In this document: positions 355 to 64,000 of the stretch, in pieces
Position numbering within the stretch: the first letter of the stretch is position 1
How the letters are laid out: each line of letters opens with the position of its first letter
Origin: Stenotrophomonas acidaminiphila
Lineage (GTDB): Bacteria; Pseudomonadota; Gammaproteobacteria; Xanthomonadales; Xanthomonadaceae
NCBI GenBank assembly: GCA_002951995.1
Contig: CP019797.1
Span: forward strand, 1,472,501-1,536,500
Reading direction: 5' to 3'
DNA: 64,000 bases
Made by a program: the position numbers and the translations under genes
The notes under the pieces: generated by a model
The model's database searches: none
What the model was told of the DNA's origin: nothing
The model's input: only the letters and a program-made list of their open reading frames with translations

Positions 355-1248
355 CTACGCGGCCAATTGCCGCCGCAGCCAGTCCGCCAGCGCATCGACC
401 CGCGGGTGCCGGTCGCCGCCTGCGGTGCACAGCGCCCACTGTCCCTCGGTGTCGACGAACCCCCACGGCGCGACCAGGCGGCCATTGACCAGGTCGTCGG
501 CCACCAGCGGCTCGGGGGCGATGGCGATGCCCAGTCCGGCGACCGCCGCTTCGAGCAGGTAGTACAGGTGTTCGAAGCCAGTGCCCTGGCGCAGCGCCGC
601 AGGGTCCAGGTCGTTGAGCGTGGCCCAGGTGGGCCAGGCCTGGGGCCGCGAACGGGTGTGCAGCAGCGCGTGCTCGAGCAGCGCCTCCGGCGGCTGGTGC
701 ACGAGCCGCTGCGCGCCATGCATGGACGGGCTGAACACCGGGCCGATGCGCTCGCTGCCCAGGCCATGCACGCTCCACCCGGCCGGCCACGGCGCCTGGC
801 CGAGCAGCAGGGCGGCATCCAGTCCAGCCAGCCGTGGCGCGAAATCGCCGTCCTGCGCGGCCAGGTGCAGGGTCAGGCCCGGCAGGTCGCGCTGCAGCTG
901 CTGCAGGCGCGGGATCATCCAGCGCGCCAGCACGCTGCCCGGGCAGCCGAGCACGAAGGCGTCGTTGCGTTTGCCCCGGCGCAGCGCGGCCACGCAGTCG
1001 CGCAGCTGCGAAAACGCCCCGGAGGTGGCTTCCTGCAGGCGCCTGCCGGCGGCGGTGGGGCGGATGCCGCGGCCGTCGCGTTCGATCAGCGCCACTCCCA
1101 GTTCCTCCTCCAAGGCCCGCACCTGGCGGCTGACCGCGCCATGGGTCACGTGCAGTTCGTCGGCGGCAAGGCTGACGCTGCGCAGCCGGGCGGCGGCCTC
1201 GAAGGCGCGCAGGGCGTTGAGCGAGGGCAGGGCGTGATCGTCTTTCAT
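355..1248 (-). CDS. trpI: LysR-family transcriptional activator TrpI
   Basis: 297-residue LysR regulator. The N-terminus [20 protein letters not shown] with the following [21 protein letters not shown] is the winged helix-turn-helix (about residues 8-65). The C-terminal co-inducer domain carries [20 protein letters not shown]. These stretches match what I remember of Pseudomonas TrpI, which activates trpBA when bound to indoleglycerol phosphate. It is divergent from trpB, as in Pseudomonas. The ATG at 1248 is chosen because homology begins right there; further upstream the frame runs through the tandem repeats. Its start codon lies at the edge of the first repeat unit. The function is inferred from family and position. 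Confidence 0.85.
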
Positions 1249-1601
1249 GGCGCACACCTGACCGCCATGGATGGCGGGAATGCCGGTTCTGCAGGAGCAA
1301 CAGCCGGCCCCGCGCCACCCTGCGTGCGGCTTCGCCGTGAATAACGGCTGTCCTGCCGTTCTTTCATGGCGCACCCCAGACCGCCATGGATGGCGGGAAT
1401 GCCGGTTTTGCAGGAGCAAAAGCCGGCCCCGCGCCACCCTGCGGGCGGCTTCGCCGTGAATAACGGCTGTCCTGCCGTTCTTTCATGGCGCACACCTGAC
1501 CGCCATGGATGGCGGGAATGCCGGTTTGCAGGAGCGAAAGCCTGCCCCGCGCCACCCCGCGGGCCGTGTTGCCAAGAAGAACAGTTGCCCGGTTGTTTTT
1601 T
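1246..1601. repeat. Three tandem 118-119 bp repeats between trpI and trpB
   Basis: Units begin at 1246, 1365 and 1484 (period 119), each with CATGGCGCAC; the third is diverged in its last 45 bases and is 118 long. Every unit holds the inverted repeat CCGCCATGGATGGCGG (7-bp stem) and a GCAGGAGC-type segment, features I associate with dispersed repeats of Stenotrophomonas/Xanthomonas genomes. On the minus strand each unit recreates the trpI start context ATGAAAGA. The array fills most of the regulatory space between the divergent trpI and trpB genes, so it sets their spacing. Confidence 0.85.
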
Positions 1602-6845: not shown

Positions 6846-6846
<1 letters not shown>

Positions 6847-8215
6847 TGGTGGCGCGCAGGTATTTCGGCACCGACGGCATCCGCGGCCGGGTCGGTGAAG
6901 GCGCGATTTCCGCCGATTTCGTACTGCGCCTGGGCAATGCCTACGGCCAGGCGCTGGTGCGCGCCACCCAGGCGCGCGTCGCCGGCCGCAAGCCGCTGGT
7001 GGTGATCGGCAAGGACACGCGCATCTCCAACTACATGTTCGAGGCCGCGCTGGAGGCCGGGCTGGTGGCGGCCGGGGTGCACGTGCAGCTGATGGGGCCG
7101 ATGCCGACCCGGCGGTGGCGCACCTGACCCGCTCGCTGCGCGCCGACGGTGGCATCGTCATCTCCGCCTCGCACAACCCGCACCACGACAACGGCATCAA
7201 GTTCTTCTCCGCGCAGGGCGAGAAGCTCGACGACGCCACCGAGCTGTCGATCGAGGCCGCGCTTGAGCAGCCGTTCGCGACCGTGGCCTCGGAGCAGCTG
7301 GGCAAGGCGGTGCGCACGCGCGATGCGATCGGCCGCTATGTCGAGGCCTGCAAGAATTCGGTGCCGCGCGACTTCGACCTGCAGGGCATGCGCATCGTGG
7401 TCGATTGCGCCAATGGCGCGACGTACCAGGTGGCGCCGCTGGTGCTGCGCGAACTGGGAGCCAGCGTCGAGGCGATGGGCGTCGAGCCCAACGGCGTGAA
7501 CATCAACGACGGGGTCGGCTCGATGTACCCGCAGGCGCTGGCCGCCCGGGTGCGCGCCAGCGGAGCCCACCTGGGCATCGCCTTCGACGGCGACGGCGAC
7601 CGCCTGCTGTTCGTGGACAGCGATGGCGTGGTGCACGATGGCGACGACCTGCTGTACCTGCTGGCGCTGGACTGGAAGGCCAGTGGCCGCCTGCACGGGC
7701 CGGTGGTGGGCACGCTGATGACCAACTACGGGTTCGAGCAGGCGCTGGCGCAGGCCGGCATCGGTTTCCTGCGCGCCGACGTCGGCGACCGCTACGTGCA
7801 CAAGGCGCTGCTGGAACACCATGGCGTGCTCGGCGGCGAAGCCTCGGGTCACCTGCTGTGCCTGGACCGGGCCACCACCGGCGACGGCATCATCAGCGCG
7901 CTGCAGGTGCTGGAGGTGCTCCGGCGCCGCGGCATCACCCTGCAGCAGGCGCTGGCCGGGCTCAGCCGGGTGCCGCAGCAGACCATCAATGTCCGGGTCG
8001 GGCAGGGCATGTCCGCCAAGGAGATCGTCCGCTCACCGGCGGTGGCCGCGGCACTGGCCGGCGCGCAGGTCGCGATCGTCGGGCGCGGACGCGCGTTTCT
8101 GCGTCCGTCCGGCACCGAGCCGGTGGTGCGGGTGACGGTGGAGGCCGACGACGCCGGGTTGATGCAGGCCACGCTCGAGCGCCTGGCCGACGCGGTCAAG
8201 GCCGCCGCAGCATGA
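6846..8215 (+). CDS. glmM: Phosphoglucosamine mutase, frame broken once
   Basis: Converts glucosamine 6-phosphate to glucosamine 1-phosphate for UDP-GlcNAc, hence for peptidoglycan and lipid A. FGTDGIRG opens the protein, the catalytic serine lies in ISASHNP (about residue 109 after repair), DGDGDR binds Mg, and FLRPSGTEP binds the sugar phosphate. The frame breaks at 7108-7110, where MGPMPT should continue as PAVAHLTRS; one more C in the CCC run restores a protein of about 456 residues, normal for the family. As the gene is normally essential and single-copy, an assembly error is likely. The start ATG overlaps the accD stop. Confidence 0.93.
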
Positions 8216-10526: not shown

Positions 10527-11461
10527 GTGAGCAAGATCCCAACCCTCGACATCACCCGCTTCGACAGCGACCGCGAGGCCTTCGTGGCCGAGCTGGGCGC
10601 GGCCTATCGCCAGTGGGGGTTCGCGGGCATCCGCAACCACGGCATCCCGCAGGCCGACATCGACGCGGCCTACGATGCCTTCAAGGCGTTCTTCGCCCTG
10701 CCCGAAGAGGTCAAGCGCAAGTACCACGTGGCCGGCGGCGGCGGCGCCCGCGGCTACACCCCGTTCGGCGTGGAGACCGCCAAGGGCTCCAAGCACTTCG
10801 ACCTGAAGGAGTTCTGGCACATCGGCCGGGAAATCCCGACGACTCGCCGTACCGCGAGGTGATGCCGCCGAACCTGTGGCCCAGTGAGGTGCCCGGGTTC
10901 CGCGAGCGCGGCTATGGCCTGTACCAGGCGCTGGACAACCTGGGGTCGCGCGTGCTGTCGGCGCTGGCCCTGCACATCGGGCTGCCGCAGGATTTCTTCG
11001 CCGACAAGACCAACAACGGCAACTCGATCCTGCGTCCGATCCACTACCCGCCGATCACCACCGATGACATCCCGAACGTGCGTGCCGGCGCCCACGGCGA
11101 CATCAATTTCATCACCCTGCTGGTCGGCGCCAGCGCCGCGGGGCTGGAAGTGCAGTCGCGCGATGGCGAGTGGGTGCCGTTCACGTCCGATGCGGACACC
11201 ATCGTGGTCAACATCGGCGACATGCTGCAGCGCCTGACCAACCATGTGTACCCGTCGACCATCCACCGCGTGGTCAACCCCCCGGGCGAGCTGGCCCGCC
11301 AGCCGCGTTACTCGGTGCCGTTCTTCCTGCACCCGAACCCGGATTTCCTGATCGACGTGCTGCCCTCGTGCATCACCGCGGACAACCCGAGCCGGTACCC
11401 GGAGGCGATCACCGCCCATGGCTTCCTCGAGGAGCGCCTGCGCGAGATCAAGCTGAAGTAA
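10527..11461 (+). CDS. 2-oxoglutarate/Fe(II) oxygenase, isopenicillin N synthase-like, frame broken once
   Basis: About 311 residues after repair. N-terminal DIOX_N part: IPTLDITRF, then WGFAGIRNHGIP. The jelly-roll core supplies the iron ligands HGD in AGAHGDINFITLL and the distal H in YPSTIHRVVN, with the 2-oxoglutarate contact R-x-S in PRYSVPFF. Substrate unknown; relatives include isopenicillin N synthase and plant-type dioxygenases. The frame fails at the CCC run 10835-10837: IGREIP should continue DDSPYREVMPPNLWP, which one extra C restores. The GTG start at 10527 follows GCCAGGAACC, a reasonable ribosome site. It stands alone between the divergent glycan genes and tpiA. Confidence 0.88.
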
Positions 11462-29079: not shown

Positions 29080-30590
29080 ATGAGCAAGGAACTTCTGCTG
29101 GTAGTCGACGCGGTCGCCAATGAGAAAGGCGTGCCGCGCGAAGTGATCTTCGATGCGATCGAGGCGGCGCTCGCCTCCGCGGCCAAGAAGCGCTATGTGG
29201 ACCAGGACGTGCTCGCGCGCGTTTCGATCGACCACAAGGACGGCAGCTACGAGACTTTCCGCCGCTGGGAAGTTGTGGCCGACGACGTGGTGATGGAGTC
29301 GCCGGACCGCCAGATCCGCCTGATGGACGCGATCGAGGAGGCCGACGGCGTCGAGGTCGGCGACTATATCGAGGAGCAGATCGAGAACCCGGACTTCGGG
29401 CGCATCGCCGCGCAGGCCGCCAAGCAGGTGATCGTGCAGCGCGTGCGCGAGGCCGAGCGCCAGCAGGTCGTGGACGCGTGGAAGGACCGTGTCGGCGAGC
29501 TGGTGACCGGCGTGGTCAAGCGTGCCGAGCGCGGCAACATCTACGTCGACCTGGGCGGCAACGCCGAGGCGTTCATCCCCAAGGATAAGGGCATTCCGCG
29601 CGACGTGCTGCGCGCCGGCGACCGCGTGCGCGGTTACCTGGCCGAGGTGCGTTCGGAGCCGCGCGGCCCGCAGCTGTTCATCAGCCGCGCCGCCCCGAGT
29701 TCATGATCGAGCTGTTCAAGCTGGAAGTGCCGGAAGTCGGCCAGGGGCTGGTCGAGATCAAGGCCTGCGCCCGCGACCCGGGTGACCGCGCCAAGATCGC
29801 GGTCATCGCCCACGACAGCCGCACCGATCCGATCGGCGCCTGCATCGGCATGCGCGGTTCGCGCGTGCAGGCGGTGAGCAACGAGCTCAACGGCGAGCGC
29901 GTGGACATCGTGCTGTGGAACGAGAATCCGGCCAATTTCGTCATCAACGCGATGGCGCCGGCCGAGGTGCAGTCCATCATCGTCGATGAGGAAAAGCACT
30001 CGATGGACCTGGCCGTGGCCGAAGAGCGCCTGGCCCAGGCGATCGGCAAGGGCGGCCAGAACGTGCGCCTGGCCAGCCGCCTGACCGGCTGGCAGCTCAA
30101 CGTCATGACCCAGGACCAGGTCGCCGCCAAGTCGGAGGCCGAGCAGGCCGTCGCCCGCCAGCTGTTCATGGACAAGCTGGAAGTGGACGAGGAAATCGCC
30201 GGCATCCTGGTCAGCGAGGGCTTCAGCACCGTCGAGGAAATCGCCTACGTGCCGATCGGCGAGCTGCTGGCGGTGGAGGGCTTCGACGAGGACATCGTCG
30301 AGGAACTGCGCGCCCGCGCCCGCGACGCACTGCTCAACGAGGCGCTGGCGGTGGAAGAGGGCGCCGAGGAAGGCGTGCCGGCGGCGGACCTGCTGGCGCT
30401 GCCGGGCATGGACGAGGCCACGGCCTATGCGCTGGCCGGGAACGGCGTGCGCACCAGCGAGGACCTGTCGGACCTGGCGGCCGACGAAGTCCTGGAGTTC
30501 GGCATCGAGGGCATGGACCTGGAGCGCGCCGCGGCGCTGGTCCTGGCAGCCCGCGCCGAGGAGATCGCCCGTCTGGAGCGCGGCGAATGA
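29080..30590 (+). CDS. nusA: Transcription elongation factor NusA, frame broken once
   Basis: About 503 residues after repair. Binds RNA polymerase and nascent RNA, controlling pausing, termination and antitermination. N-terminal polymerase-binding domain ([19 protein letters not shown]), S1 domain ([21 protein letters not shown]), two KH domains ([32 protein letters not shown]), and two acidic C-terminal repeats. The frame breaks at the CCCC run 29693-29696: FISRAAP should continue [13 protein letters not shown]; one extra C repairs it. NusA is normally essential, so an assembly deletion is likely. Confidence 0.94.
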
Positions 30591-54306: not shown

Positions 54307-56096
54307 TCACTCGCCGAAGCGCGCGGCGTCCATGGCCATCAGCGGCGCGGCGCCGCTTTCCATGCTGGCGGCATGGGCCAGGGTGCGCGGCAGGATGCGC
54401 GCGTAGTAGAAGCGCGCGGTTTCCAGCTTGGCCTGCTTGAAGGCGTCGGGATGGGCCGATGCCTGCGCCGCGGCTACCGCGCGCGCCCACCAGTAGGCCA
54501 GGGCGACGTAGCCGCTGTAGAACAGATAGTCCCAGCTGGCCGCGCCCAGCTCCTCGGGATTGGCCGCAGCGCGCTGCAGGACGCTGCGGGTCAGCGTGCC
54601 CCATTCGTTGGCCCGGGCGCCGAGCACCGGCAGGAATTCGGCGACGGCGGGATTGTCGCCGTTGGCGGCGATGAACGCCTGGATCTCGGCCAGGAACAGC
54701 TTCAGCCCCGCGCCCTGCGACAGGGCGGTCTTGCGCCCGATCAGGTCCAGCGCCTGGATGCCGGTGGTGCCTTCGTACAGGGTGGTGATGCGGGCGTCGC
54801 GGGCCAGCTGCTCCATGCCGTGCTCGGCGATGTAGCCGTGGCCGCCGAAGCACTGCTGGGCGTTGTAGGTGCACTCGATGCTCCACTCGGTCAGGCAGGC
54901 CTTGACGATGGGCGTGAGGAAACTGACCAGGGTCTCGGCATCGGCGCGCACCTGTGCGTCGCCGGCGCTCTGCGCGGCGTCGAGCTGGGTATAGGCGTGC
55001 GCGGCCAGCAGCCGCCCGCCTTCGGTCAGCGCCTTGATCGACAGCAGCATGCGCCGCACGTCCGGCTGGGCGATGATCGGGTCGGCCGGCTTGTCGGCCA
55101 GCTGCGCGCCCTTCGGCGCGCGCGACTGCAGGCGCTCGCGGGCGTAGGCCAGGGCGCCCTGGTAGGCGCGCTCGGACTGCGCCAGGCCCTGGATGCCGAC
55201 GCCGAGGCGGGCGGAGTTCATCATCACGAACATCGCCTGCAGGCCCTTGTGCGGCTGGCCCACGAGGTAGCCCTGGGCGCCGTCGAAGTTCATCACGCAG
55301 GTGGACGAGCCGTGGATGCCCATCTTGTGTTCCAGCGCGCCGCAGCGCAGGGCATTGCGCTCGCCCATCGTGCCGTCGCGGCCGACCTTGTACTTGGGGG
55401 TGACGAACAGCGAGATGCCCTTCGGCCCGGGCGGGGCGTCGGGCAGCTTGGCCAGCACCAGGTGGACGATGTTCTCGCTCAGGTCGTGCTCGCCGGCGGT
55501 GATGAATATCTTGGTGCCGGTGATGGCATAACTGCCATCGGCGTTGGGCTCGGCGCGGGTCTTGAGCAGGCCCAGGTCGGTGCCGGCATGCGGCTCGGTC
55601 AGGCACATGGTGCCGGTCCAGTTGCCGGCCACCAGCGGCTTCAGGAAGGCTTCCTTCTGCCAGTCCTCGCCGTAGTGCTTGAGTGCCTCGACCGCGCCGT
55701 GCGACAGCATCGGGAACAGGCTCCAGGCCAGGTTGGCCGAGGACACCATCTCGCTCAGCGCCATGCCAGGGTTTCGGGCATGCCCTGGCCGCCGAACTCC
55801 GGCGCGGCGGTCAGGCCGGTCCAGCCGCCGTCGACGAACTGCGCGTACGCTTCCTTGAAACCGGGCGCGGTGGTGACCTCGCCGGTGGCCTTGTCCAGCG
55901 TGCAGCCGTTCTGGTCGCCCACTGCGTTGAGCGGCGCCAGCACGCTGGCGCTGAAGCGGCCGGCTTCCTCCAGCACGGCGTCGATGACGTCGGCGCTGGC
56001 GTCGGCGTGGCCCATCGCGGCGAACAGGGACTCGGCCTTGAGCACGTCGTGCAGGGCGAAGCGGAGGTCGGTAACGGGTGCCTTGTAGTTGCTCAT
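54307..56096 (-). CDS. Acyl-CoA dehydrogenase (long form with C-terminal extension), frame broken once
   Basis: About 596 residues after repair. FAD enzyme that introduces the first double bond in fatty acid beta-oxidation. N-terminal helical part (MSNYKAPVTDLRFAL), the core with GTMCLTEPHAGTDLG, KIFITAGEHD, CFGGHGYIAEHGMEQLARDARITTLYEGTTGIQALDLIGRK, and the C-terminal extension typical of the 600-residue class. The frame breaks at 55766-55767 (plus strand CC): MPETL should continue GMALSEM, restored by one extra base. Monocistronic; a G+C-rich run follows the stop. Confidence 0.9.
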
Positions 56097-56133: not shown

Positions 56134-56610
56134 TCAGCGCAGCACGCCGGGCAGGCCCGGCGCCTGGTTCAGGGTGTTGCGTGCGCTCACCTCGAAGCTG
56201 CGCTGCTTTTTTTCTTCCGGGGTGGCCTTGACCGTGCCCTCCAGCTCGTAGAACAGCGAGCGGCCGCCGGCCAGGGCGTCGGCCACGACGATGCGCGCCG
56301 GCGAGGCCGGCTGCAGGCGGACCTTGATCACGTCGGCCGATTCCGGGCCGATCGACAGCCCCGGGGTGGCGGCCAGGGTACCGGCGGCCTGGTCACCGAC
56401 CTTGATCCGCAGGGCGACGTCGTCGAAGCGCATCGGCATCGAACTGTAGTTGCGCAGCCGCAGCTCGACTTCCCAGCTGCCGTCGTTGGCGACGGTGAGC
56501 TGCTGGATGCCGGCGGCGGGTTCGGAAACCCGCTTCACCATGCCGCCGCCGCACGCGGCCAGGGCGAGGCTGAGAACTGCGGTCAGGACGTACTGTGGGC
56601 GAAAACGCAT
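56134..56610 (-). CDS. LEA14-like (LEA_2) lipoprotein
   Basis: 158 residues. MRFRPQYVLTAVLSLALAACGGG is a lipoprotein signal with lipobox LAAC. The mature part (IQQLTVANDGSWEVELRLRNYSSMPMRFDDVALRIKV, then LSIGPESADVIKVRL) has the beta-sandwich pattern of LEA type 2 / water-stress domains. Likely anchored in the outer or inner membrane facing the periplasm. The ATG at 56610 is chosen over one 12 codons upstream because it starts the signal. Function unknown. Divergent from the TonB-dependent receptor gene. Confidence 0.78.
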   Translation of the reverse strand: MRFRPQYVLTAVLSLALAACGGGMVKRVSEPAAGIQQLTVANDGSWEVELRLRNYSSMPMRFDDVALRIKVGDQAAGTLAATPGLSIGPESADVIKVRLQPASPARIVVADALAGGRSLFYELEGTVKATPEEKKQRSFEVSARNTLNQAPGLPGVLR

Positions 56611-56784
56611 ACTGCTCGGTCCTCGGGATCCGGAGGGGTTGACCAAAGGATACTACGCCGTATGGCGGGCATGGCCGGGGGGCGAAGGTGCGGCCGATGG
56701 CGGAACTTCCGCGCAGGCTCATCTAGGCAGGTGAGGAGACCGACAACGTCGCCGCATTCGCATATACCGGAGAGGGGTTCATCA

Positions 56785-59700
56785 ATGCGTTCATTCAAGT
56801 TGTTGCCGCTGGCCAGCGCCATCCGTGGCGGCCTGGCCGCCGCGGCGCTGTGCGTGGCCATGCCGGCGCTCGCCGCACCGCCGCAGTTCGATATCGAAGG
56901 CGGTCGCATCGAGGAAGTGCTGCCTGAATTCGCCCGCCAGGCGGGCCTGCAGATCATCGCGCCGGCCGCCATGGGCGACGAGGGGCGGATCGAGGTCGGG
57001 CAGCTGAAGGGGCAGATGGACCCGCGGCAGGCGTTGAACCGCCTGCTCAATGGCACCGGGCTGGCCATCGCCTCGGACGACGGCCGTACGATCACCCTGC
57101 GCGCCGCCGCGCCGATGCTGGCCTCGCTCGGTGGCCTGGGCGGGCTGGCGGTGGCGCAGGCCGCCGAACCCGAACCGGTGGCCCCGGCGCCGCAGCCGGC
57201 GCCGGCCAGCGGCCCGGTCAATACGCTGGACCAGGTCACCGTGGTCGGCAGCCAGATCAAGGGCAGCAAGTCGGCGGCGATCCTGCCGGTGGCGACGCTG
57301 CAGGCCGAGCAGATCGAAGCCACCGGCGCGGTCTCCGGCGACGACCTGTACCGCTCCATCCCGCAGATGGGCAATGTCTCCTTCAGCGGCACCAACGGCG
57401 GCAACAGCTCCAACTACGCGCGCGGCGACATCGCCTCGGTCAACCTGCGCGGGCTCGGCGTGGGCAACACGCTGCTGCTGATCAACGGCCGCCGCACCGT
57501 GGTGCACCCGACCAGCCAGGCCGACGGCAACCTGGTGCCGGTGCTGACCTACAACGCCAACACCGTGCCGGTGGCCAACCTGCGCCGGGTCGAGGTGCTG
57601 CTGGACGGCGCTGCCGCGATCTACGGCACCGACGCGGTGGCCGGCGTGGTCAACAACGTGCTGCGCGACGACATGGACGGCGGCACGCTGAGCGTGCAGA
57701 AGGGCGTGGGCGAGGGCACCCACCTGAGCGATGTGTCGGTCAACGGCATGTGGGGCCGCAATTCGCAGGACCTGCGCTCCAACGTCACCGTGGCCTTCAA
57801 TTACTACAACACCACCGGCCTGAATTCGCTGGACCAGGACTGGACCCGCAGCGGCAACCGCATCGACGACTTCGCCGGTACCCCGTACGCAGGCCTGGCC
57901 GGGGTGGACAACCGCAACACCAACAGTCCGTGGGGCAATTTCACCGCCAATGGCGCGCGCGTGTCGCAGAACGGCAAGTGGTTGACCACCGCCGCCGGCG
58001 CCTTCCACGTCAAGCCGACCAGCAACGGCAACTGCGCCGCGACCCTCGGCGACGGCCTGTGCGTGCAGTCCGGCAGCAAGGCCACCTCGGGTGCCGACGC
58101 CAACCTGCGCGACAACCACCAGTCGTTGTACCCGGTGTCTATCGCGCCGGACGTGCGCCGCATCAACCTGTTCGCCACCGGCAAGCATGATTTCGAGAAC
58201 GGCATCTCGCTGTTCAGCGAGGCCGGCCTGTACGACTCGCGCGCCTACAGCCTGCAGAATGGCGTGAACACCATTTCCTCGCTGCCGATGACGGTCGCCG
58301 CCAGCAATTACTGGAACCCGTTCGGCGCGATGTACCTGCCCGACGGCACGCTCAACCCGAACCGGCTGCAGGGCCTGAACATCGGTCCCAACGGCCTGCC
58401 GGTGACGATCACCAGCTACCGCTTCGAGCGCCCGACCCGGATCGAGGTCAAGAACACCCAGGTGCGCGCGCTGGCCGGCCTGCGCGGCTACCACTTCGGT
58501 TTCGACTGGGAAAGCGCGGCGCTGTACTCCAAGGCCAGGGTCGAGGACACCCAGGACGCGGTGAGCATGACCCTGTTCCAGCAGGCGCTGGCCGATTCGA
58601 CCGCGGCGGCCTACAACCCGTTCTGCGGCGGCTGCAACGACTGGAGCAAGCTCGACCGGTTCTTCTACAAGGCCAAGCGCCAGAGCGAGACCGAACTGTA
58701 CCTGTGGGACGTCAAGGCTTCGCGCCCGGACCTGTTCCGCACCTGGGCCGGCGACGTCGGCATGGCGGCCGGCATGGAAGTGCGCCATGAGACCCAGCGC
58801 GACGACCGCGACGCCCACGTCGACGGTTCGTTGACCTTCACCGACGCGATCACCGGGGTCCAGTACCCGAGCGACATGTATGGCGTCAGCCCGACCCCGG
58901 ACACCTACGGGTCGCGCACCGTCGCCGGCGTGTTCGCCGAGTTCTCGGTGCCGCTGGTCGCGCCGGGGATGGACATCCCGCTGGTGCGTTCGCTGGACCT
59001 GCAGGTGGCCGGCCGCGCCGAGCGCTACAACGACTTCGGCAGCGTGGCCAAGCCGAAGCTGGCGCTGGGCTGGCAGATCATCGACGGCCTGACCGTGCGC
59101 TCGTCCTGGGCCAAGGGCTTCCGCGCGCCCAACCTGGAGCAGGTCAACGCCACCATGGTCAGCCGCTCCAACAACCGCACCGACTGGGTCCAGTGCCTGG
59201 CCGACGTGCGCAGCGGCGCGCAGGCCTCGATGGCGGGCTGCAAGGGCTACACCGCCTCGACCACCGCGCGCCGTTCGGGCAACCCGGACCTGAAGCCGGA
59301 AACCTCGACCAACACCAGCGCCGGCATCGTGTTCCAGCCGCAGTTCATCCCCGAGGACTTCGGCCGCTTCACCTTCGCGGTGGATTACTACAAGTACGCG
59401 CAGGAAGGCATCATCGGCCTGTTCGGCGAGGGCAACGCGCTGATCCTGGACTACGTGCTGCGCCAGCAGGGCGGCAGCAACGCCGACGTGGTGCGCGCCG
59501 ACCCCACCGCCGACGACATCGCGCGCTACGCCGGTACCGGGCTGGAGGCCGCGGGCAAGGTGCTGTACGTCAAGGACCAGTACGTCAACCTCGAACCGCA
59601 GACCGTGCGCGGCGTGGATTACAGCTTCAGCTGGGCCTCGCCGGAAACCCGCGCCGGTCGTTTCGACGTGTCGCTCAACGGCACCCGCCTGATCGAGTTC

Positions 59701-60144
59701 TACCGCCAGCGCTCGCCGGCGCTGCAGGCGCTGGAAGACGCCAAGGGCAGCGGCCTGGTCGATCCGTCGATCCGGGTCACCGGCGGCGGCAACCTGATCG
59801 GCAACGGCGGCAACCCGCAGTGGAAGTGGTCCGGCACCCTCACCTGGCGTTACCAGCAGCTGTCGGTCGGCGCCAGCGCGCGCTACAGCAGTGCGTTCGT
59901 CGAGAACGGCCTGGTGCTGGCCGACGGCACGCCGTGGACGGTGAAGTCGCAGACCCTGGCCAATGCCTTCGTCAAGTACGACTTCCGCGGCGACGGCTGG
60001 ATGGACGGACTGTCGCTGAAGGTCGGCGCCAACAACCTGGCCGACAAGCGGCCGCCGGTGTCCAGCGACGCGTTCGGCTATTCCTCGGCGGTGTACCAGG
60101 CGTATCCGCGCTACTGGTACGTCAACGTGACCAAGGCGTTCTGA
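56785..60144 (+). CDS. TonB-dependent signalling receptor (FecA-like transducer)
   Basis: 1119 residues. Signal peptide to about residue 30 (ALCVAMPALA). A secretin/TonB N-terminal (STN) domain follows (residues about 33-108, FDIEGGRIEEVLPEFARQAG, GQMDPRQALNRLLNGTGLAI), which marks receptors that signal to an anti-sigma factor. Then a Pro/Ala linker, a TonB-box-like DQVTVVGSQ (about 149-157), the plug domain (VNLRGLGVGNTLLLINGRR, AAIYGTDAVAGVVN) and the barrel, ending in the required terminal Phe (YWYVNVTKAF). The plug and barrel style resembles the large peptide or carbohydrate receptors of Xanthomonas and Caulobacter. Ribosome site GGAGAGGGG. Downstream sigma and FecR genes complete the circuit. 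Confidence 0.93.
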   Translation: MRSFKLLPLASAIRGGLAAAALCVAMPALAAPPQFDIEGGRIEEVLPEFARQAGLQIIAPAAMGDEGRIEVGQLKGQMDPRQALNRLLNGTGLAIASDDGRTITLRAAAPMLASLGGLGGLAVAQAAEPEPVAPAPQPAPASGPVNTLDQVTVVGSQIKGSKSAAILPVATLQAEQIEATGAVSGDDLYRSIPQMGNVSFSGTNGGNSSNYARGDIASVNLRGLGVGNTLLLINGRRTVVHPTSQADGNLVPVLTYNANTVPVANLRRVEVLLDGAAAIYGTDAVAGVVNNVLRDDMDGGTLSVQKGVGEGTHLSDVSVNGMWGRNSQDLRSNVTVAFNYYNTTGLNSLDQDWTRSGNRIDDFAGTPYAGLAGVDNRNTNSPWGNFTANGARVSQNGKWLTTAAGAFHVKPTSNGNCAATLGDGLCVQSGSKATSGADANLRDNHQSLYPVSIAPDVRRINLFATGKHDFENGISLFSEAGLYDSRAYSLQNGVNTISSLPMTVAASNYWNPFGAMYLPDGTLNPNRLQGLNIGPNGLPVTITSYRFERPTRIEVKNTQVRALAGLRGYHFGFDWESAALYSKARVEDTQDAVSMTLFQQALADSTAAAYNPFCGGCNDWSKLDRFFYKAKRQSETELYLWDVKASRPDLFRTWAGDVGMAAGMEVRHETQRDDRDAHVDGSLTFTDAITGVQYPSDMYGVSPTPDTYGSRTVAGVFAEFSVPLVAPGMDIPLVRSLDLQVAGRAERYNDFGSVAKPKLALGWQIIDGLTVRSSWAKGFRAPNLEQVNATMVSRSNNRTDWVQCLADVRSGAQASMAGCKGYTASTTARRSGNPDLKPETSTNTSAGIVFQPQFIPEDFGRFTFAVDYYKYAQEGIIGLFGEGNALILDYVLRQQGGSNADVVRADPTADDIARYAGTGLEAAGKVLYVKDQYVNLEPQTVRGVDYSFSWASPETRAGRFDVSLNGTRLIEFYRQRSPALQALEDAKGSGLVDPSIRVTGGGNLIGNGGNPQWKWSGTLTWRYQQLSVGASARYSSAFVENGLVLADGTPWTVKSQTLANAFVKYDFRGDGWMDGLSLKVGANNLADKRPPVSSDAFGYSSAVYQAYPRYWYVNVTKAF

Positions 60145-60170
60145 TGATTCCAGACGTTGTCCGTGAAAAC

Positions 60171-60188
60171 GCCCGGCACGCGCCGGGC
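60171..60188 (+). other. Hairpin between receptor and sigma factor genes
   Basis: GCCCGGC (60171-60177) pairs with GCCGGGC (60182-60188) around ACGC. No T-run. It might reduce expression of the sigma factor relative to the receptor or stabilise the upstream mRNA. Confidence 0.35.
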
Positions 60189-60205
60189 ACCGCGGGGGTG
60201 CGGCG

Positions 60206-60793
60206 ATGAGCGCGGCACTGGGCGCGGCGCGTGCGTTGTGGCTCGCCGAGCACGTGCTGCCGTGCGAGCCGGCGCTGCGCGACTGGCTGCAGCGCCGGCT
60301 GCCGGTGCGCCAGGACGTGGATGACGTGATCCAGGAAACCTACGCCATCCTGGCGGCGCTGGCGGACGTGTCCCACGTGCGCCAGCCGCGCGCCTACGTG
60401 TACTCGGTGGCGCAGTCGGTGGTGCTGCAGCAGCTGCGGCGTGCGCAGGTGGTGTCGATCGAGGCCGTGGCCGAGATCGAGCGGGTGGCCATCGGCGGCG
60501 AGGAGGCGTGCCCGGAGCGGACCGCGTCCTCGCGGCAGGAACTGGCGCGGATCGGCGCGTTGATCGACAGCCTGCCGGACAAGTGCCGGCAGGCCTTCGT
60601 CCTGCGCCGGATCGAGGGGTACTCGCAGCGCGAGATCGCCCAGCGGATGCAGATCAGCGAGAACACCGTGGAGAAACACATCTGCAAGGGAATCCGGGTA
60701 TTGATGGATTCGATGAAGCGTGACGGGAAAGACGCGGACGAGGGCAGGGAACGGCCTGCGGCAGGAGGAACACGCCATGCGCGCACGCGATGA
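60206..60793 (+). CDS. ECF RNA polymerase sigma factor (FecI-like)
   Basis: 195 residues. Region 2 (LQRRLPVRQDVDDVIQETYAIL, QPRAYVYSVAQSVVLQQLRR) and region 4 (IDSLPDKCRQAFVLRRIEGYSQREIAQRMQISENTVEKHICKG) of FecI-type sigma factors. Should direct transcription of the receptor gene on signal. The stop lies 17 bases inside fecR, so the two are translationally linked. The last 25 residues are a shadow-like basic tail caused by this overlap. Confidence 0.93.
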   Translation: MSAALGAARALWLAEHVLPCEPALRDWLQRRLPVRQDVDDVIQETYAILAALADVSHVRQPRAYVYSVAQSVVLQQLRRAQVVSIEAVAEIERVAIGGEEACPERTASSRQELARIGALIDSLPDKCRQAFVLRRIEGYSQREIAQRMQISENTVEKHICKGIRVLMDSMKRDGKDADEGRERPAAGGTRHARTR

Positions 60794-61787
60794 GCACAGC
60801 ATCGACGATATCGCCGCGGCCTGGGTCGCGCGCGAGGACCGGGCCCCGCTGACGGCCGCCGACGCGGTCGCGCGCGATGCCTGGCTGCAGGCCGATGTGC
60901 GCCACTTCGGCGCCTATGCGCGGGCGCATGCAGTGCTGGCGCGCACCGCGCGTGCGCGCGCGTTGTCCAATGGCACGGCCGCGATCGCCGCGGCTCCTGT
61001 GCCGCCGCGTTTCCGGCGGTCGCGACGGGTGCTGCGCTGGGCGGCCGGCATGGCCGCGGCACTGAGCCTGCTGGTGATCGGCGTGCACCGCCAGCAGGAT
61101 GATGCCGAGTACTACGCCACGCGCCGCGGCGAAATCCTGCGGGTGCCGCTGGAGGACGGTTCGGCGATCACCCTGGACTCGGATTCGCAGGTACGCGTGC
61201 GCTACGACGACGCGCGCCGCAGCATCACCCTGCTGCAGGGCGAGGCGCTGTTCGACGTGGCCAAGAACCCCGGCCGCCCGTTCGTGGTGCGTGCGCAGGA
61301 AACCGACGTGACCGCGGTCGGCACCAGTTTCGCGGTCAGCCTCACCGAGCGTCGCAGCGGCGGTGTCGAGGTGCTGGTGCGCGAAGGGGTGGTGGACGTG
61401 GCCGACACCCAGGGCGCGGTGGCGCCGGCGCGCCTGCTGGCCAACTACCGCGCGCTGGCCAATCGCAGCCACGGCATCCGCATCGAGGCCGTGCCCGCCG
61501 AGGACCTGGAGCAGCAGCTGGCCTGGCGCGAGGGCATGCTGTCGTTCAACGGCGACACGCTGTCGGTGGCGGCCGCGCAGTTCCTGCGCTACAGCGACAC
61601 CCGCATCGTCATCGACGATCCGCTGGTCGGCAGCCGCCGCATCGTCGGCCTGTACTCGGCCAGCGATCCGCTGGGCTTCGCCCGCAGCGTCGCCCTGAGC
61701 CTGGGGCTGGTGGTCGAACAGCAGGGCAAGGTGGTGCGCCTGCGCACCCCGCAGAGCGCGCCGCAGGCGGCGCATTCCATGCAATGA
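60777..61787 (+). CDS. FecR-family anti-sigma factor
   Basis: 336 residues. A cytosolic N-terminal FecR_N part (DIAAAWVAREDRAPLTAADAVARDAWLQAD) is followed by one transmembrane helix (about 86-103) and a periplasmic FecR domain (RRGEILRVPLEDGSAITLDSDSQVRV, LLQGEALFDVAKNPGRPFVV, GTSFAVSL). The C-terminal DUF4974-like/STN part (NGDTLSVAAAQFLRYSDTRIVIDDP) should contact the receptor STN domain. The ATG at 60777 follows GCAGGAGGAAC, a strong ribosome site. Confidence 0.93.
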   Translation: MRARDEHSIDDIAAAWVAREDRAPLTAADAVARDAWLQADVRHFGAYARAHAVLARTARARALSNGTAAIAAAPVPPRFRRSRRVLRWAAGMAAALSLLVIGVHRQQDDAEYYATRRGEILRVPLEDGSAITLDSDSQVRVRYDDARRSITLLQGEALFDVAKNPGRPFVVRAQETDVTAVGTSFAVSLTERRSGGVEVLVREGVVDVADTQGAVAPARLLANYRALANRSHGIRIEAVPAEDLEQQLAWREGMLSFNGDTLSVAAAQFLRYSDTRIVIDDPLVGSRRIVGLYSASDPLGFARSVALSLGLVVEQQGKVVRLRTPQSAPQAAHSMQ

Positions 61788-61802
61788 CTCTGGATTGAAT
61801 AC

Positions 61803-63623
61803 ATGAACATCACTCCCCGCCGCGCCCGCGCGCTCGCCCTGCTCACCGCGTTGCTGCTGTCCTCCGGGCAGGCCAGCGTGGCCGCCACGTCCGCCGATAC
61901 GGCGCTGCTGATCCGCGATGCCATGGTGTTCGATGGCACCGGGCGCCCCGCGTATCCGGGCAGCGTGCTGGTGCTGGACGGCCGCATCGCGGCGGTCGCC
62001 GGTGCCGGCCAGGCCCTGGCCGCGCCCCGCGGTGCGCGGGTGATCGACGCCCGTGGCCAGGCGCTGCTGCCGGGGCTGTTCGACCTGCACACCCACTGGA
62101 CGCCCAATGCGCGCCCGGCCGAGCTGCCGCAGATCGCCAACCTGTACATGGCCGCCGGCGTGACCACCGTCAGCGATTTCCACGAGCCGCCCGAGGCCTA
62201 TGCGCCGCGCCGCGCCTGGCTGGCCGACATCGCCGCGCCTGACGTGAAATTCGCCGCGCGCATGAGCACGCCGCTCGGCCACGGTGCCGACTGGGGTGAC
62301 GAGAACACCACCCGCTGGGTGAATTCGCCGGAGGCCGCGCGCGCCGGCGTGCGTGCGGTGGCGGCCTACAAGCCGGACTTCATTAAGGCCTTCACCGACG
62401 GTTGGCGCTATTCCAACGCTGCCGACAACAGCAGCATGGACGAGGAGACCCTGGCCGCGCTGGTGGACGAGGCGCACCGGCACGGGCTGAAGGTGTTCTC
62501 GCACACGGTGATGGTCAAGCGCGGCAAGGTCGCCGCGCGCGCCGGCGTGGACGTGATCGCGCACAGCGTGCAGGACATGCCCGTGGACGCCGAACTGGTG
62601 CGGCTGATGCGTGAGCATGGCACCGCCTACGCGCCGTCGCTGGCGGTGTACCTGCCCGCGCGCGTGGATGGCAGCGGTGCCGCCGGTACCCGCCCGGAGG
62701 TGCTGCGGCAGCGCGAGCGCAATTTCGCCGATGCCCTGCGCAACGTGAAGGCGCTGCACGATGCCGGCATCCCGGTGGTGGTCGGCACCGACGCCGGCAT
62801 GACCGGCACGCCGCACGGGGCCTCGACCCTGCGTGAACTGGAGCTGCTGGTCGACGCCGGGCTGACCCCGGCCGAGGCGCTGGTCGCCGGCACCGCCAAC
62901 AGCGCCCGCGCGCTGGGCGTGGACGACCGCGGCACCGTCGAGGTCGGCAAGCGTGCCGACCTGCTGCTGGTGAAGGGGCGGCCCTGGGAGCGCATCGCCG
63001 ATATCCGCAACACCCAGCGGGTCTACGTCGCCGGCCGCCAGGTGCACGGGCCGGGCACGGTGTTGCCGGCCGGCAACCGCGCGCTGGCGCTGCCGGCGCA
63101 GGCGGTGGCGCCGCTGGTCGACGACTTCGAGCGCGCCGACGGGCGCACCGCGCTGGATACGCTGCGCATCGACGAGGCCGATGGTGGCAACGACCGCACG
63201 CTGCAGGTCAGCGAGACCGTCGCCCGCGAGAGCGGCGGCCACGCGCTGTCGGTGCAGGCGCGGCTGTCCACCAAGCCCAACGCCTATGCCGCGGCGATCC
63301 TGCCGCTGAGCCGCGGTTCGGTCGCGCCGGTGGACCTGCGCGGCTACCGCGGCATCCGCTTCGACGTACGCGGCGGCACGCCGGCGCTGCGGCTGGAGGT
63401 GCGGGCACTGGGCGACCGCCGTTTCATCGCTCCGGTCCAGGCCGCGCCGCAGTGGCGCAGCGTGGAGATCCCGTTCTCCGCGCTGCAGGGACAGCCGCCC
63501 TACCGCGGCAAGGGCCCGGTGGCCGCATGGCAGGGCGACGACGTCCAGCAGCTGGTGTTCTCCGCCGGCGGCGAGGCCGGCGGCAAGGTGTGGTTCGAGA
63601 TCGACAACGTGGGCTTCTACTGA
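61803..63623 (+). CDS. Exported amidohydrolase with C-terminal CIA30-like domain
   Basis: 606 residues. Signal peptide to about residue 28. The metal-dependent amidohydrolase domain carries H96 and H98 (DLHTHW), a carboxylated-Lys candidate about K196 (FIKAF), His about 234 (FSHTV) and 253 (AHSVQD), and Asp about 330 (GTDAG), a complete two-metal set. Beta-strand ends VLVLDGRIAAV and GKRADLLLVKGRP frame it. From about residue 440 a second module (LVDDFERADGRTALDT, YRGIRFDVRGG, WRSVEIPFSAL, VWFEIDNVGFY) resembles the CIA30/galactose-binding-like fold. Probably periplasmic; imidazolonepropionase, prolidase and ochratoxinase-type enzymes are relatives. Substrate unknown. 15 bases after fecR. Confidence 0.88.
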   Translation: MNITPRRARALALLTALLLSSGQASVAATSADTALLIRDAMVFDGTGRPAYPGSVLVLDGRIAAVAGAGQALAAPRGARVIDARGQALLPGLFDLHTHWTPNARPAELPQIANLYMAAGVTTVSDFHEPPEAYAPRRAWLADIAAPDVKFAARMSTPLGHGADWGDENTTRWVNSPEAARAGVRAVAAYKPDFIKAFTDGWRYSNAADNSSMDEETLAALVDEAHRHGLKVFSHTVMVKRGKVAARAGVDVIAHSVQDMPVDAELVRLMREHGTAYAPSLAVYLPARVDGSGAAGTRPEVLRQRERNFADALRNVKALHDAGIPVVVGTDAGMTGTPHGASTLRELELLVDAGLTPAEALVAGTANSARALGVDDRGTVEVGKRADLLLVKGRPWERIADIRNTQRVYVAGRQVHGPGTVLPAGNRALALPAQAVAPLVDDFERADGRTALDTLRIDEADGGNDRTLQVSETVARESGGHALSVQARLSTKPNAYAAAILPLSRGSVAPVDLRGYRGIRFDVRGGTPALRLEVRALGDRRFIAPVQAAPQWRSVEIPFSALQGQPPYRGKGPVAAWQGDDVQQLVFSAGGEAGGKVWFEIDNVGFY

Positions 63624-63634
63624 GGGTGCGGGCG

Positions 63635-64000
63635 ATGGGCATGCGGCGGGCGCGGTTCGGGATCCGGCTGGGCGCCGGGCTGGTGGCCTGCGCGGCCGGC
63701 GTGGCCTGGGCGGCCGAGCCCGGGGTACTGGCGGCGTTGGACGCCTATGCACCACGCCAGGCGCAGGTCGCCCAGGCGCTGTGGCGGCAGCCCGAGCTGG
63801 GCTACCTGGAAGAGCGCTCCTCGCGCCTGTTGCAGCAGGAACTGCGCCAGGCCGGCTTCCGCATCGAAGCCGGCGTGGCCGGCATGCCGACCGCGTTCGT
63901 CGCCTCGTACGGCACGCGCGGCAGCGGACCGGTGATCGCGCTGCTGGCCGAGATGGACGCGCTGCCGGGCATGGCGCAGGCGGCCGGGCCGGTGCGCATG
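63635..64000 (+). CDS. M20-family amidohydrolase, exported, 5' part
   Basis: Runs off the window; the first 122 residues are visible. A signal peptide (LGAGLVACAAGVAWAAEPG) precedes a typical M20D start: LWRQPELGYLEERSSRLLQQELRQAGF, then GPVIALLAEMDALPG, where the Asp belongs to the metal-binding region. Relatives hydrolyse N-acyl amino acids, aminobenzoyl-glutamate or dipeptides. Start at 63635 or two codons later. It follows the other amidohydrolase by 11 bases, so the two are likely co-transcribed with the receptor module. Confidence 0.85.
   Translation, partial: MGMRRARFGIRLGAGLVACAAGVAWAAEPGVLAALDAYAPRQAQVAQALWRQPELGYLEERSSRLLQQELRQAGFRIEAGVAGMPTAFVASYGTRGSGPVIALLAEMDALPGMAQAAGPVRM

Follow-up and report, generated by a model that had tools for sequence, protein, structure and literature searches.

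The stretch analyzed here, hereafter the window, comprises 64,000 nucleotides of the Stenotrophomonas acidaminiphila genome (1472501-1536500 on the complete contig, which is 3,660,864 bases long). It ends in a five-gene module that encodes a TonB-dependent receptor, a FecI-like extracytoplasmic function (ECF) sigma factor, a FecR-like regulator, and two hydrolases with export-type N-termini. We read this module as a substrate-inducible, autoregulated cell-surface-signaling operon for a small amide-linked molecule, with a probability of roughly 0.6. We infer that the receptor binds such a molecule outside the cell, most likely a short peptide or an N-acyl amino acid, and that its STN domain signals via FecR to the sigma factor, which would be released in a ligand-dependent manner, as in the cell-surface-signaling class. 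The sigma factor would direct RNA polymerase to a motif ahead of the receptor gene, and the receptor, sigma factor, FecR, and both exported hydrolases would rise together. The molecule would be imported to the periplasm, cut there, and used as carbon and nitrogen. The features on which this reading is built are as follows:

56698-56723, + strand: putative ECF-type promoter motif, TGGCGGAAC-N13-CATC, recognized by conservation, 61 bases ahead of the receptor ATG
56785-60144, + strand: TonB-dependent receptor, 1119 residues (Pfam Plug and TonB barrel over cut-offs)
60206-60793, + strand: FecI-like ECF sigma factor, 195 residues (Sigma70_r4_2, 60.7 bits, and Sigma70_r2, 29.3 bits, both over cut-off)
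60777-61787, + strand: FecR-like transmembrane anti-sigma factor or sigma regulator, 336 residues from its ATG (FecR domain, 74.7 bits)
61803-63623, + strand: exported two-metal amidohydrolase of the Xaa-Pro, Xaa-Arg, or ochratoxin hydrolase kind, 606 residues (Amidohydro_1, 97.6 bits)
63635-65095, + strand (window end at 64000): M20D amidohydrolase, 486 residues (TIGR01891, 247.1 bits; cut-off, 153.75)

The five open genes form a single run on the + strand (56785-65095), the last 1095 bases of which lie beyond the window end and were read from the same contig. In module order, the intergenic distances are 61, -17, 15, and 11 bases, in agreement with the first-pass annotation, which had described five co-directional genes with gaps or overlaps of about 60 bases at most; as an observation, that description is confirmed, with all five genes present and open and their order conserved. 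The M20 gene, which it had seen in part, ends at 65095 and is followed by a convergent lipocalin gene (Pfam) and a tRNA-Phe gene; because the next gene downstream is convergent, the module ends at the M20 gene. The start of FecR was taken as the ATG at 60777, which is preceded by AGGAGG, in place of the GTG at 60720 given by mechanical open reading frame calling. Its DUF4880 score is 17.5 bits, under the cut-off of 25, and it contains one strong hydrophobic segment at residue 85 (hydropathy 1.91). By Pfam and hydropathy, a FecI-type ECF sigma factor adjoins a FecR-type single-span regulator, the combination that characterizes cell-surface signaling. The N-termini of the receptor, amidohydrolase, and M20 protein are basic and continue into a hydrophobic stretch with an A-x-A-like site (best 19-residue hydropathy 1.75, 1.62, and 1.59, respectively); export is called from these two properties rather than from a signal-peptide predictor, and both hydrolases are probably periplasmic.

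A second element expected of this class is a receptor with an N-terminal signaling domain. An STN-type domain is predicted at about residues 31-111 of the receptor, with a Pfam score of 26.8 bits, under the cut-off of 28.4. Residues 5-106 align at 46% with the paralogous receptor of locus L140, whose STN domain passes Pfam (37.2 bits). By this architecture, judged from the sequence, the receptor is one of the cell-surface-signaling kind. The 80 named amidohydrolase loci examined here (the best 80 of 144) contain 71 receptors that form one homology cluster. Within 1.5 kb, 19/71 have both an STN domain and sigma/FecR genes, 52/71 have neither, and none is discordant; among the 52, the sequence on one side is shorter than 1.5 kb for nine (including L085, itself truncated at the 5' end), and distant relatives make up nine. 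A first receptor tree left out four cut receptors, and a second, built from the last 950 residues with the STN domain excluded, also left out the nine distant ones. STN and sigma/FecR each change four times on the tree and 4/4 independent pairs agree, which corresponds to a sign test value of 0.125, the lowest that four pairs can give and not significant. Sphingomonas sp. CFBP 8760 (L082), for example, has neither an STN domain (by Pfam as well) nor sigma/FecR, and its sisters L090 and L095 have both. Because the sigma and FecR genes lie on the opposite strand in three sphingomonads (L088, L090, and L095), it is the pairing that is kept and not the layout.

The candidate promoter is likewise conserved. 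The blocks TGGCGGAA and CATC are common to 11/11 aligned receptor upstream regions (window, L021-L028, L031, and L032), with GTGGCGGAA as the L032 variant of the first block. Besides the window, 13 named loci carry GGCGGAA-N14-CATC at the same position. The spacing is unchanged in L052 and L081, where the first element reads GGAGGAA, and L035 has a further variant, recognized by eye from the sequence. The form GGNGGAN-N14-CATC matches 20/20 loci in which the receptor upstream region is covered, several of which are the same genomes as named loci. Counted genome-wide (3.66 Mb) in exact and one-mismatch forms only, TGGCGGAAC-N13-CATC has one exact match, at window 56698-56723, and 20 more with one mismatch versus 1 for a reversed control; since chance alone would give about 0.1 matches to a motif with 13 fixed bases, the single exact match shows only that no other target is visible. 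The motif stands where an ECF-type promoter of the cell-surface-signaling class would be expected, and its putative user is the module's own sigma factor. A conserved motif with no second exact copy, the absence of a recognizable Fur box, and the STN pairing support an autoregulated, self-contained operon.

No Fur box was found upstream of the module when the Xanthomonas campestris consensus was scored (PMC1790865): the best match is 10/19, against a shuffle mean of 9.95 and a shuffle maximum of 13. This result bears on siderophore or heme uptake, in which the hydrolases would cleave an amide-linked carrier in the periplasm and so release its iron. FecI/FecR systems are described as serving iron in most cases (PMC1790865), as STN receptors of this kind mostly do (PMC1790865, PMC9249621), and among receptors of solved structure the nearest are those for ferric enterobactin, matched over the plug and N-terminal barrel only. 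The missing Fur box is weak evidence against such a role because only one of the four other sigma genes tested in this genome shows one (15/19, versus 9-10 for the other three). However, the module has no iron reductase or iron transporter, and 8/10 neighbors chosen from other loci for Pfam analysis are peptidases, a transpeptidase, or amidohydrolases. We consider iron uptake unlikely.

The module is conserved as a unit. All five genes occur in order in 14/80 named loci (L021-L028, L031, L032, L035, L046, L052, and L081). The L035 contig ends within the M20 gene, and in L029 the contig end truncates the locus. M20 alone is missing from L030 and L033, and in L037 the hydrolase pair is all that is present. 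The order is common to relatives in Xanthomonas massiliensis, Luteimonas, Lysobacter, and Pseudoxanthomonas, and a conserved five-gene neighborhood, which had been proposed as a check, is thus found in Stenotrophomonas and in other Xanthomonadaceae genera. Because the order is conserved in diverged genomes, a chance arrangement is very unlikely. The amidohydrolase is present in 16/91 Stenotrophomonas genomes, this one included; 15 of the 16 have all five genes, and the last is cut by its contig. A family search found it in 10/198 genomes, namely this one, six with all five genes (L101-L106), and three with the hydrolase pair only (L107-L109). Sites in Stenotrophomonas were also inspected at 30 lipocalin loci, drawn from 90 genomes with a lipocalin match. 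M20 stands beside the lipocalin gene in six, all from module genomes and one of them cut, and in 24/24 module-free loci the acyl-CoA dehydrogenase, LEA_2, and lipocalin genes lie in a row. Because the flanking genes adjoin in all 24, the module is a discrete cassette that is present or absent at one site. Identities to the window's amidohydrolase and lipocalin in five module genomes are 95/95, 87/81, 82/75, 74/76, and 75/73%; the two proteins diverge to a similar degree, a pattern that would fit inheritance with losses. The dedicated conserved motif, the empty sites, the conserved order, and the pairing of STN with sigma/FecR bear out the earlier description of the module as self-contained.

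The signaling and hydrolase genes could instead be neighbors by descent that do not form one regulon, with the hydrolases on a promoter of their own. The persistence of the hydrolase pair without receptor and sigma factor in L107-L109 points in this direction, as does a hairpin between the receptor and sigma genes:

60171-60188, + strand: hairpin GCCCGGC-N4-GCCGGGC after the receptor stop codon, without a T run behind it

Pairing in this hairpin reaches 90.2% over 16 sequences, as compared to 27-44% when the pairing is slid. Covariation is weak: one pair changed on both sides, a count that 125/500 shuffles match, and the covariation score, equaled by 78/500 shuffles, is not clearly above them. 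We therefore claim only conserved hairpin pairing. In Escherichia coli, processing of the fecABCDE mRNA leaves a stable fecA fragment (PMC9249621), and one might guess by analogy that the hairpin raises receptor over sigma factor levels. No intrinsic-terminator-like site was found on the + strand within the module. The gaps of 11-15 bases, the 17-base overlap, and the co-presence of the genes at one site across the genus also speak against separate regulons, as does the motif's single exact copy within the module; its two further + strand hits there (with at most two changes) fall inside the sigma gene. Separate control of the hydrolases is accordingly improbable in our estimate.

Both hydrolases belong to amide-cutting families, as had been proposed (Amidohydro_1 and TIGR01891). 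In an alignment of 32 sequences, the putative metal ligands of the amidohydrolase, H96, H98, K195, H234, H254, and D330, are invariant. They correspond to the HxH, Lys, His, His, Asp set of subtype I of the superfamily, as described for AnOTA (PMC11342369), with carboxylation of the lysine being putative. The C-terminal region (about residues 438-606) is a probable CIA30-like beta domain in an AlphaFold 2 model and its structural matches, although the VIA structural-match list barely reaches past residue 540, which limits the fold call. CIA30 (PF08547) scores 17.3 bits there, below the cut-off of 24, and precomputed Pfam assignments place PF08547 in 9/120 and PF03425 in 2/120 of the listed homologs. 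NF051886, the NCBIfam model of a Caulobacter Xaa-Pro dipeptidase, gives 149.6 bits, below its cut-off of 500. A Stenotrophomonas protein matches the amidohydrolase at 94% identity, and of the named loci the one nearest to that protein is S. acidaminiphila JCM 13310 (99%, L021). The structures nearest to the M20D protein are HmrA and PM20D2. According to family and structure matches, the substrates of relatives of the two hydrolases are dipeptides, N-acyl amino acids, or amides of a similar kind (PMC11342369). At other, mostly alphaproteobacterial loci, the amidohydrolase lies near M14 carboxypeptidases in 12 (8 in the same gene run), met-zincins in 13 (all within the run), and gamma-glutamyltranspeptidase in 6 (4 within the run). 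From the list of peptides, N-acyl amino acids, diketopiperazines, and toxin-like amides put forward in the first-pass annotation, relatives thus favor short peptides or N-acyl amino acids, without settling the choice.

A receptor that senses an amide toxin, a bacteriocin-like peptide, or a signal of neighboring cells could also induce hydrolases that destroy it. A defense in which the receptor imports the toxin would be odd, the peptidases that neighbor the amidohydrolase in other loci suggest nutrition, and the ADH3-like gene of this genome is elsewhere and unlinked (L138:5900-7183). Detoxification or signal quenching is consequently a minor candidate. Ochratoxin hydrolysis was rejected as the leading function: the ADH3-like protein is 34% identical to the module enzyme over residues 171-403 only. 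Its gene stands alone, encodes 427 residues, and starts almost as the ochratoxin amidohydrolase ADH3 of S. acidaminiphila does; no receptor gene is among the surrounding calls. A metal-dependent bile salt hydrolase of 945 residues was likewise considered and set aside, by description only (PMC13081902, the text of which does not use the term CIA30). The NA enzyme of strain CW117, from a study that screened 53 hydrolases, has 438 residues versus 486 for the module M20 protein, a comparison of size only (PMC9430628).

Several observations weigh against the operon reading in addition to the small number of independent pairs, the limited meaning of a missing Fur box, and the chance expectation for the motif. 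The motif is absent before three alphaproteobacterial STN receptors, and the proposed cycle does not account for the start of basal expression. The STN pairing is less clean when the limit exceeds 1.5 kb: in five Caulobacter loci (L049, L050, L053, L054, and L063), sigma/FecR genes follow an STN-free receptor at a distance of about 3.4 kb; a second receptor, of another cluster, begins about 90 bases after them and is more likely their partner. The hydrolase pair occurs without the receptor in three of the nine other Lysobacteraceae genomes (L107-L109), Caulobacter loci such as L059-L061, L065, and L068 have the hydrolase without the receptor, and 17/80 named loci have no receptor of the same family within the covered stretch (truncated by the contig end in L029 and short in some others). 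The first-pass annotation had said that relatives with hydrolases unlinked to the receptor would refute it, and its reading is weakened in part by these cases. Finally, because the amidohydrolase has HTV where LlADH, ADH3, and Cc2672 have HAHG, its specificity may differ from theirs. The earlier interpretation stands for a self-contained, STN-paired, receptor-first module with enzymes of amide-cutting families; it is qualified by a linkage that is not universal, by a substrate deduced from relatives, and by the precedent for this kind of cluster.

The arrangement in the five Caulobacter loci was recorded in its own right. At L049:12058-14850, and alike in L050, L053, L054, and L063, the receptor-amidohydrolase pair is followed by a 388-residue protein without a Pfam match, sigma/FecR, and a second receptor-sized gene; in L049, the sigma/FecR pair is followed by a PhoD gene too, as in L140.

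The S. acidaminiphila genome has six FecR-domain places, five of which combine sigma factor, FecR, and STN receptor. The window module is the only receptor-first system of the five, which upholds the earlier remark that its order is opposite to fecIRA; the order is sigma-FecR-receptor in L137, L139, and L140, and L136 has a divergent arrangement. Of these four, L140 (970-986 kb; sigma-FecR-receptor-PhoD) is nearest in sigma factor (45%), FecR (37%), and STN domain (46%). It differs in having the sigma gene first, another barrel with a CarboxypepD_reg domain, and a PhoD phosphatase instead of amide hydrolases, and a tblastn search with the module receptor found no match to the L140 receptor outside the STN part. 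Because L140 is nearest in the signaling proteins and its barrel is unmatched, exchange of signaling parts between receptors fits. The L140 operon itself spans L140:1934-8605, ends in a PhoD-like phosphatase gene, and has a receptor with STN and CarboxypepD_reg domains. A broader proposal, which we advance only tentatively, is that STN, sigma factor, and FecR form a plug-in sensing unit gained or lost about four times by one widespread receptor-amidohydrolase pair. The Xanthomonadaceae version would be a private regulon run from one promoter and devoted to an amide, nutrient or signal, that has yet to be described and that Xanthomonadaceae share with Caulobacteraceae. The enzyme that cuts it would belong to a new exported amidohydrolase subfamily with a sugar-binding-like domain.

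Upstream of the module lies one further gene:

56134-56646, divergent: small LEA_2-domain gene (Pfam)

A second conserved block, AAGGATACTACG(G/C)CGTATGG, is found at about 56645-56665, some 120-140 bases ahead of the receptor start. It occurs in the window and L021-L025, with one change in L026, and not in L027, L028, L031, and L032. The divergent LEA_2 gene may have its promoter here. Elsewhere in the window, the genes at 6846-8215, 10527-11461, 29080-30590, and 54307-56096 are each split over two frames. From their protein starts, we take them to be glmM, an isopenicillin-N-synthase-like oxygenase, nusA, and an acyl-CoA dehydrogenase. Since two of these, nusA and glmM, are essential as a rule, the splits likely reflect sequencing error in the assembly. 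Tandem repeats outside the module were seen at window 1241-1564 (119 bases, 2.7 copies) and L009:18772-19187 (160 bases, 2.6 copies).

The module looks non-iron, receptor-first, and autoregulated, has one visible target, and is of a size that would allow tests of the entire circuit. Receptors that have or lack STN, such as sisters L090 and L095 versus L082, provide a natural comparison set for the change from transporter to sensor, and knowing the ligand would reveal which amide, nutrient or signal, Xanthomonadaceae and Caulobacteraceae use.

Cell-surface signaling of this kind is already known, and lasso-peptide clusters already pair it with an amide hydrolase. Isopeptidase-bearing lasso clusters of the astexin, sphingopyxin, and rubrinodin type likewise join a TonB transporter, a sigma/anti-sigma pair, and an amide-bond hydrolase (PMC9266682). 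Those clusters, however, produce a peptide of their own and use a hydrolase of the serine alpha/beta type, whereas both module hydrolases belong to metal families. Neither a lasso maturation enzyme nor a serine isopeptidase appears in the gene calls and Pfam assignments of the module and its immediate neighbors, among which short precursor genes were not specifically searched. The claim that the pairing of these two hydrolases is undescribed therefore appears to hold for the gene pairing and not for the kind of cluster; in the literature searched (among the titles and abstract starts listed, with most subscription journals outside its scope), we found no description of a non-iron, receptor-first, hydrolase-bearing version. 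The amidohydrolase shares about 25-31% identity with the Cc2672 Arg/Lys carboxypeptidase (3MTW), Xaa-Pro dipeptidases, and the ADH3 ochratoxin hydrolase. It differs from them in an extra C-terminal beta domain, in HTV instead of HAHG, and in subfamily-specific conserved loops around GHGADW and FTDGWRY. The M20D protein is about 30% identical to HmrA and PM20D2 and, by its own N-terminus, looks exported. Like E. coli FecA-FecI-FecR, the module combines an STN TonB receptor, a FecR membrane regulator, a FecI-type ECF sigma factor, and a putative ECF-type promoter before the receptor gene. In E. coli, fecIR is Fur-controlled and not autoregulated (PMC9249621). In the module, by contrast, no Fur box is seen, the receptor comes first, the sigma/FecR genes lie behind the same motif in a layout that would provide autoregulation, and hydrolases take the place of the iron transporters.

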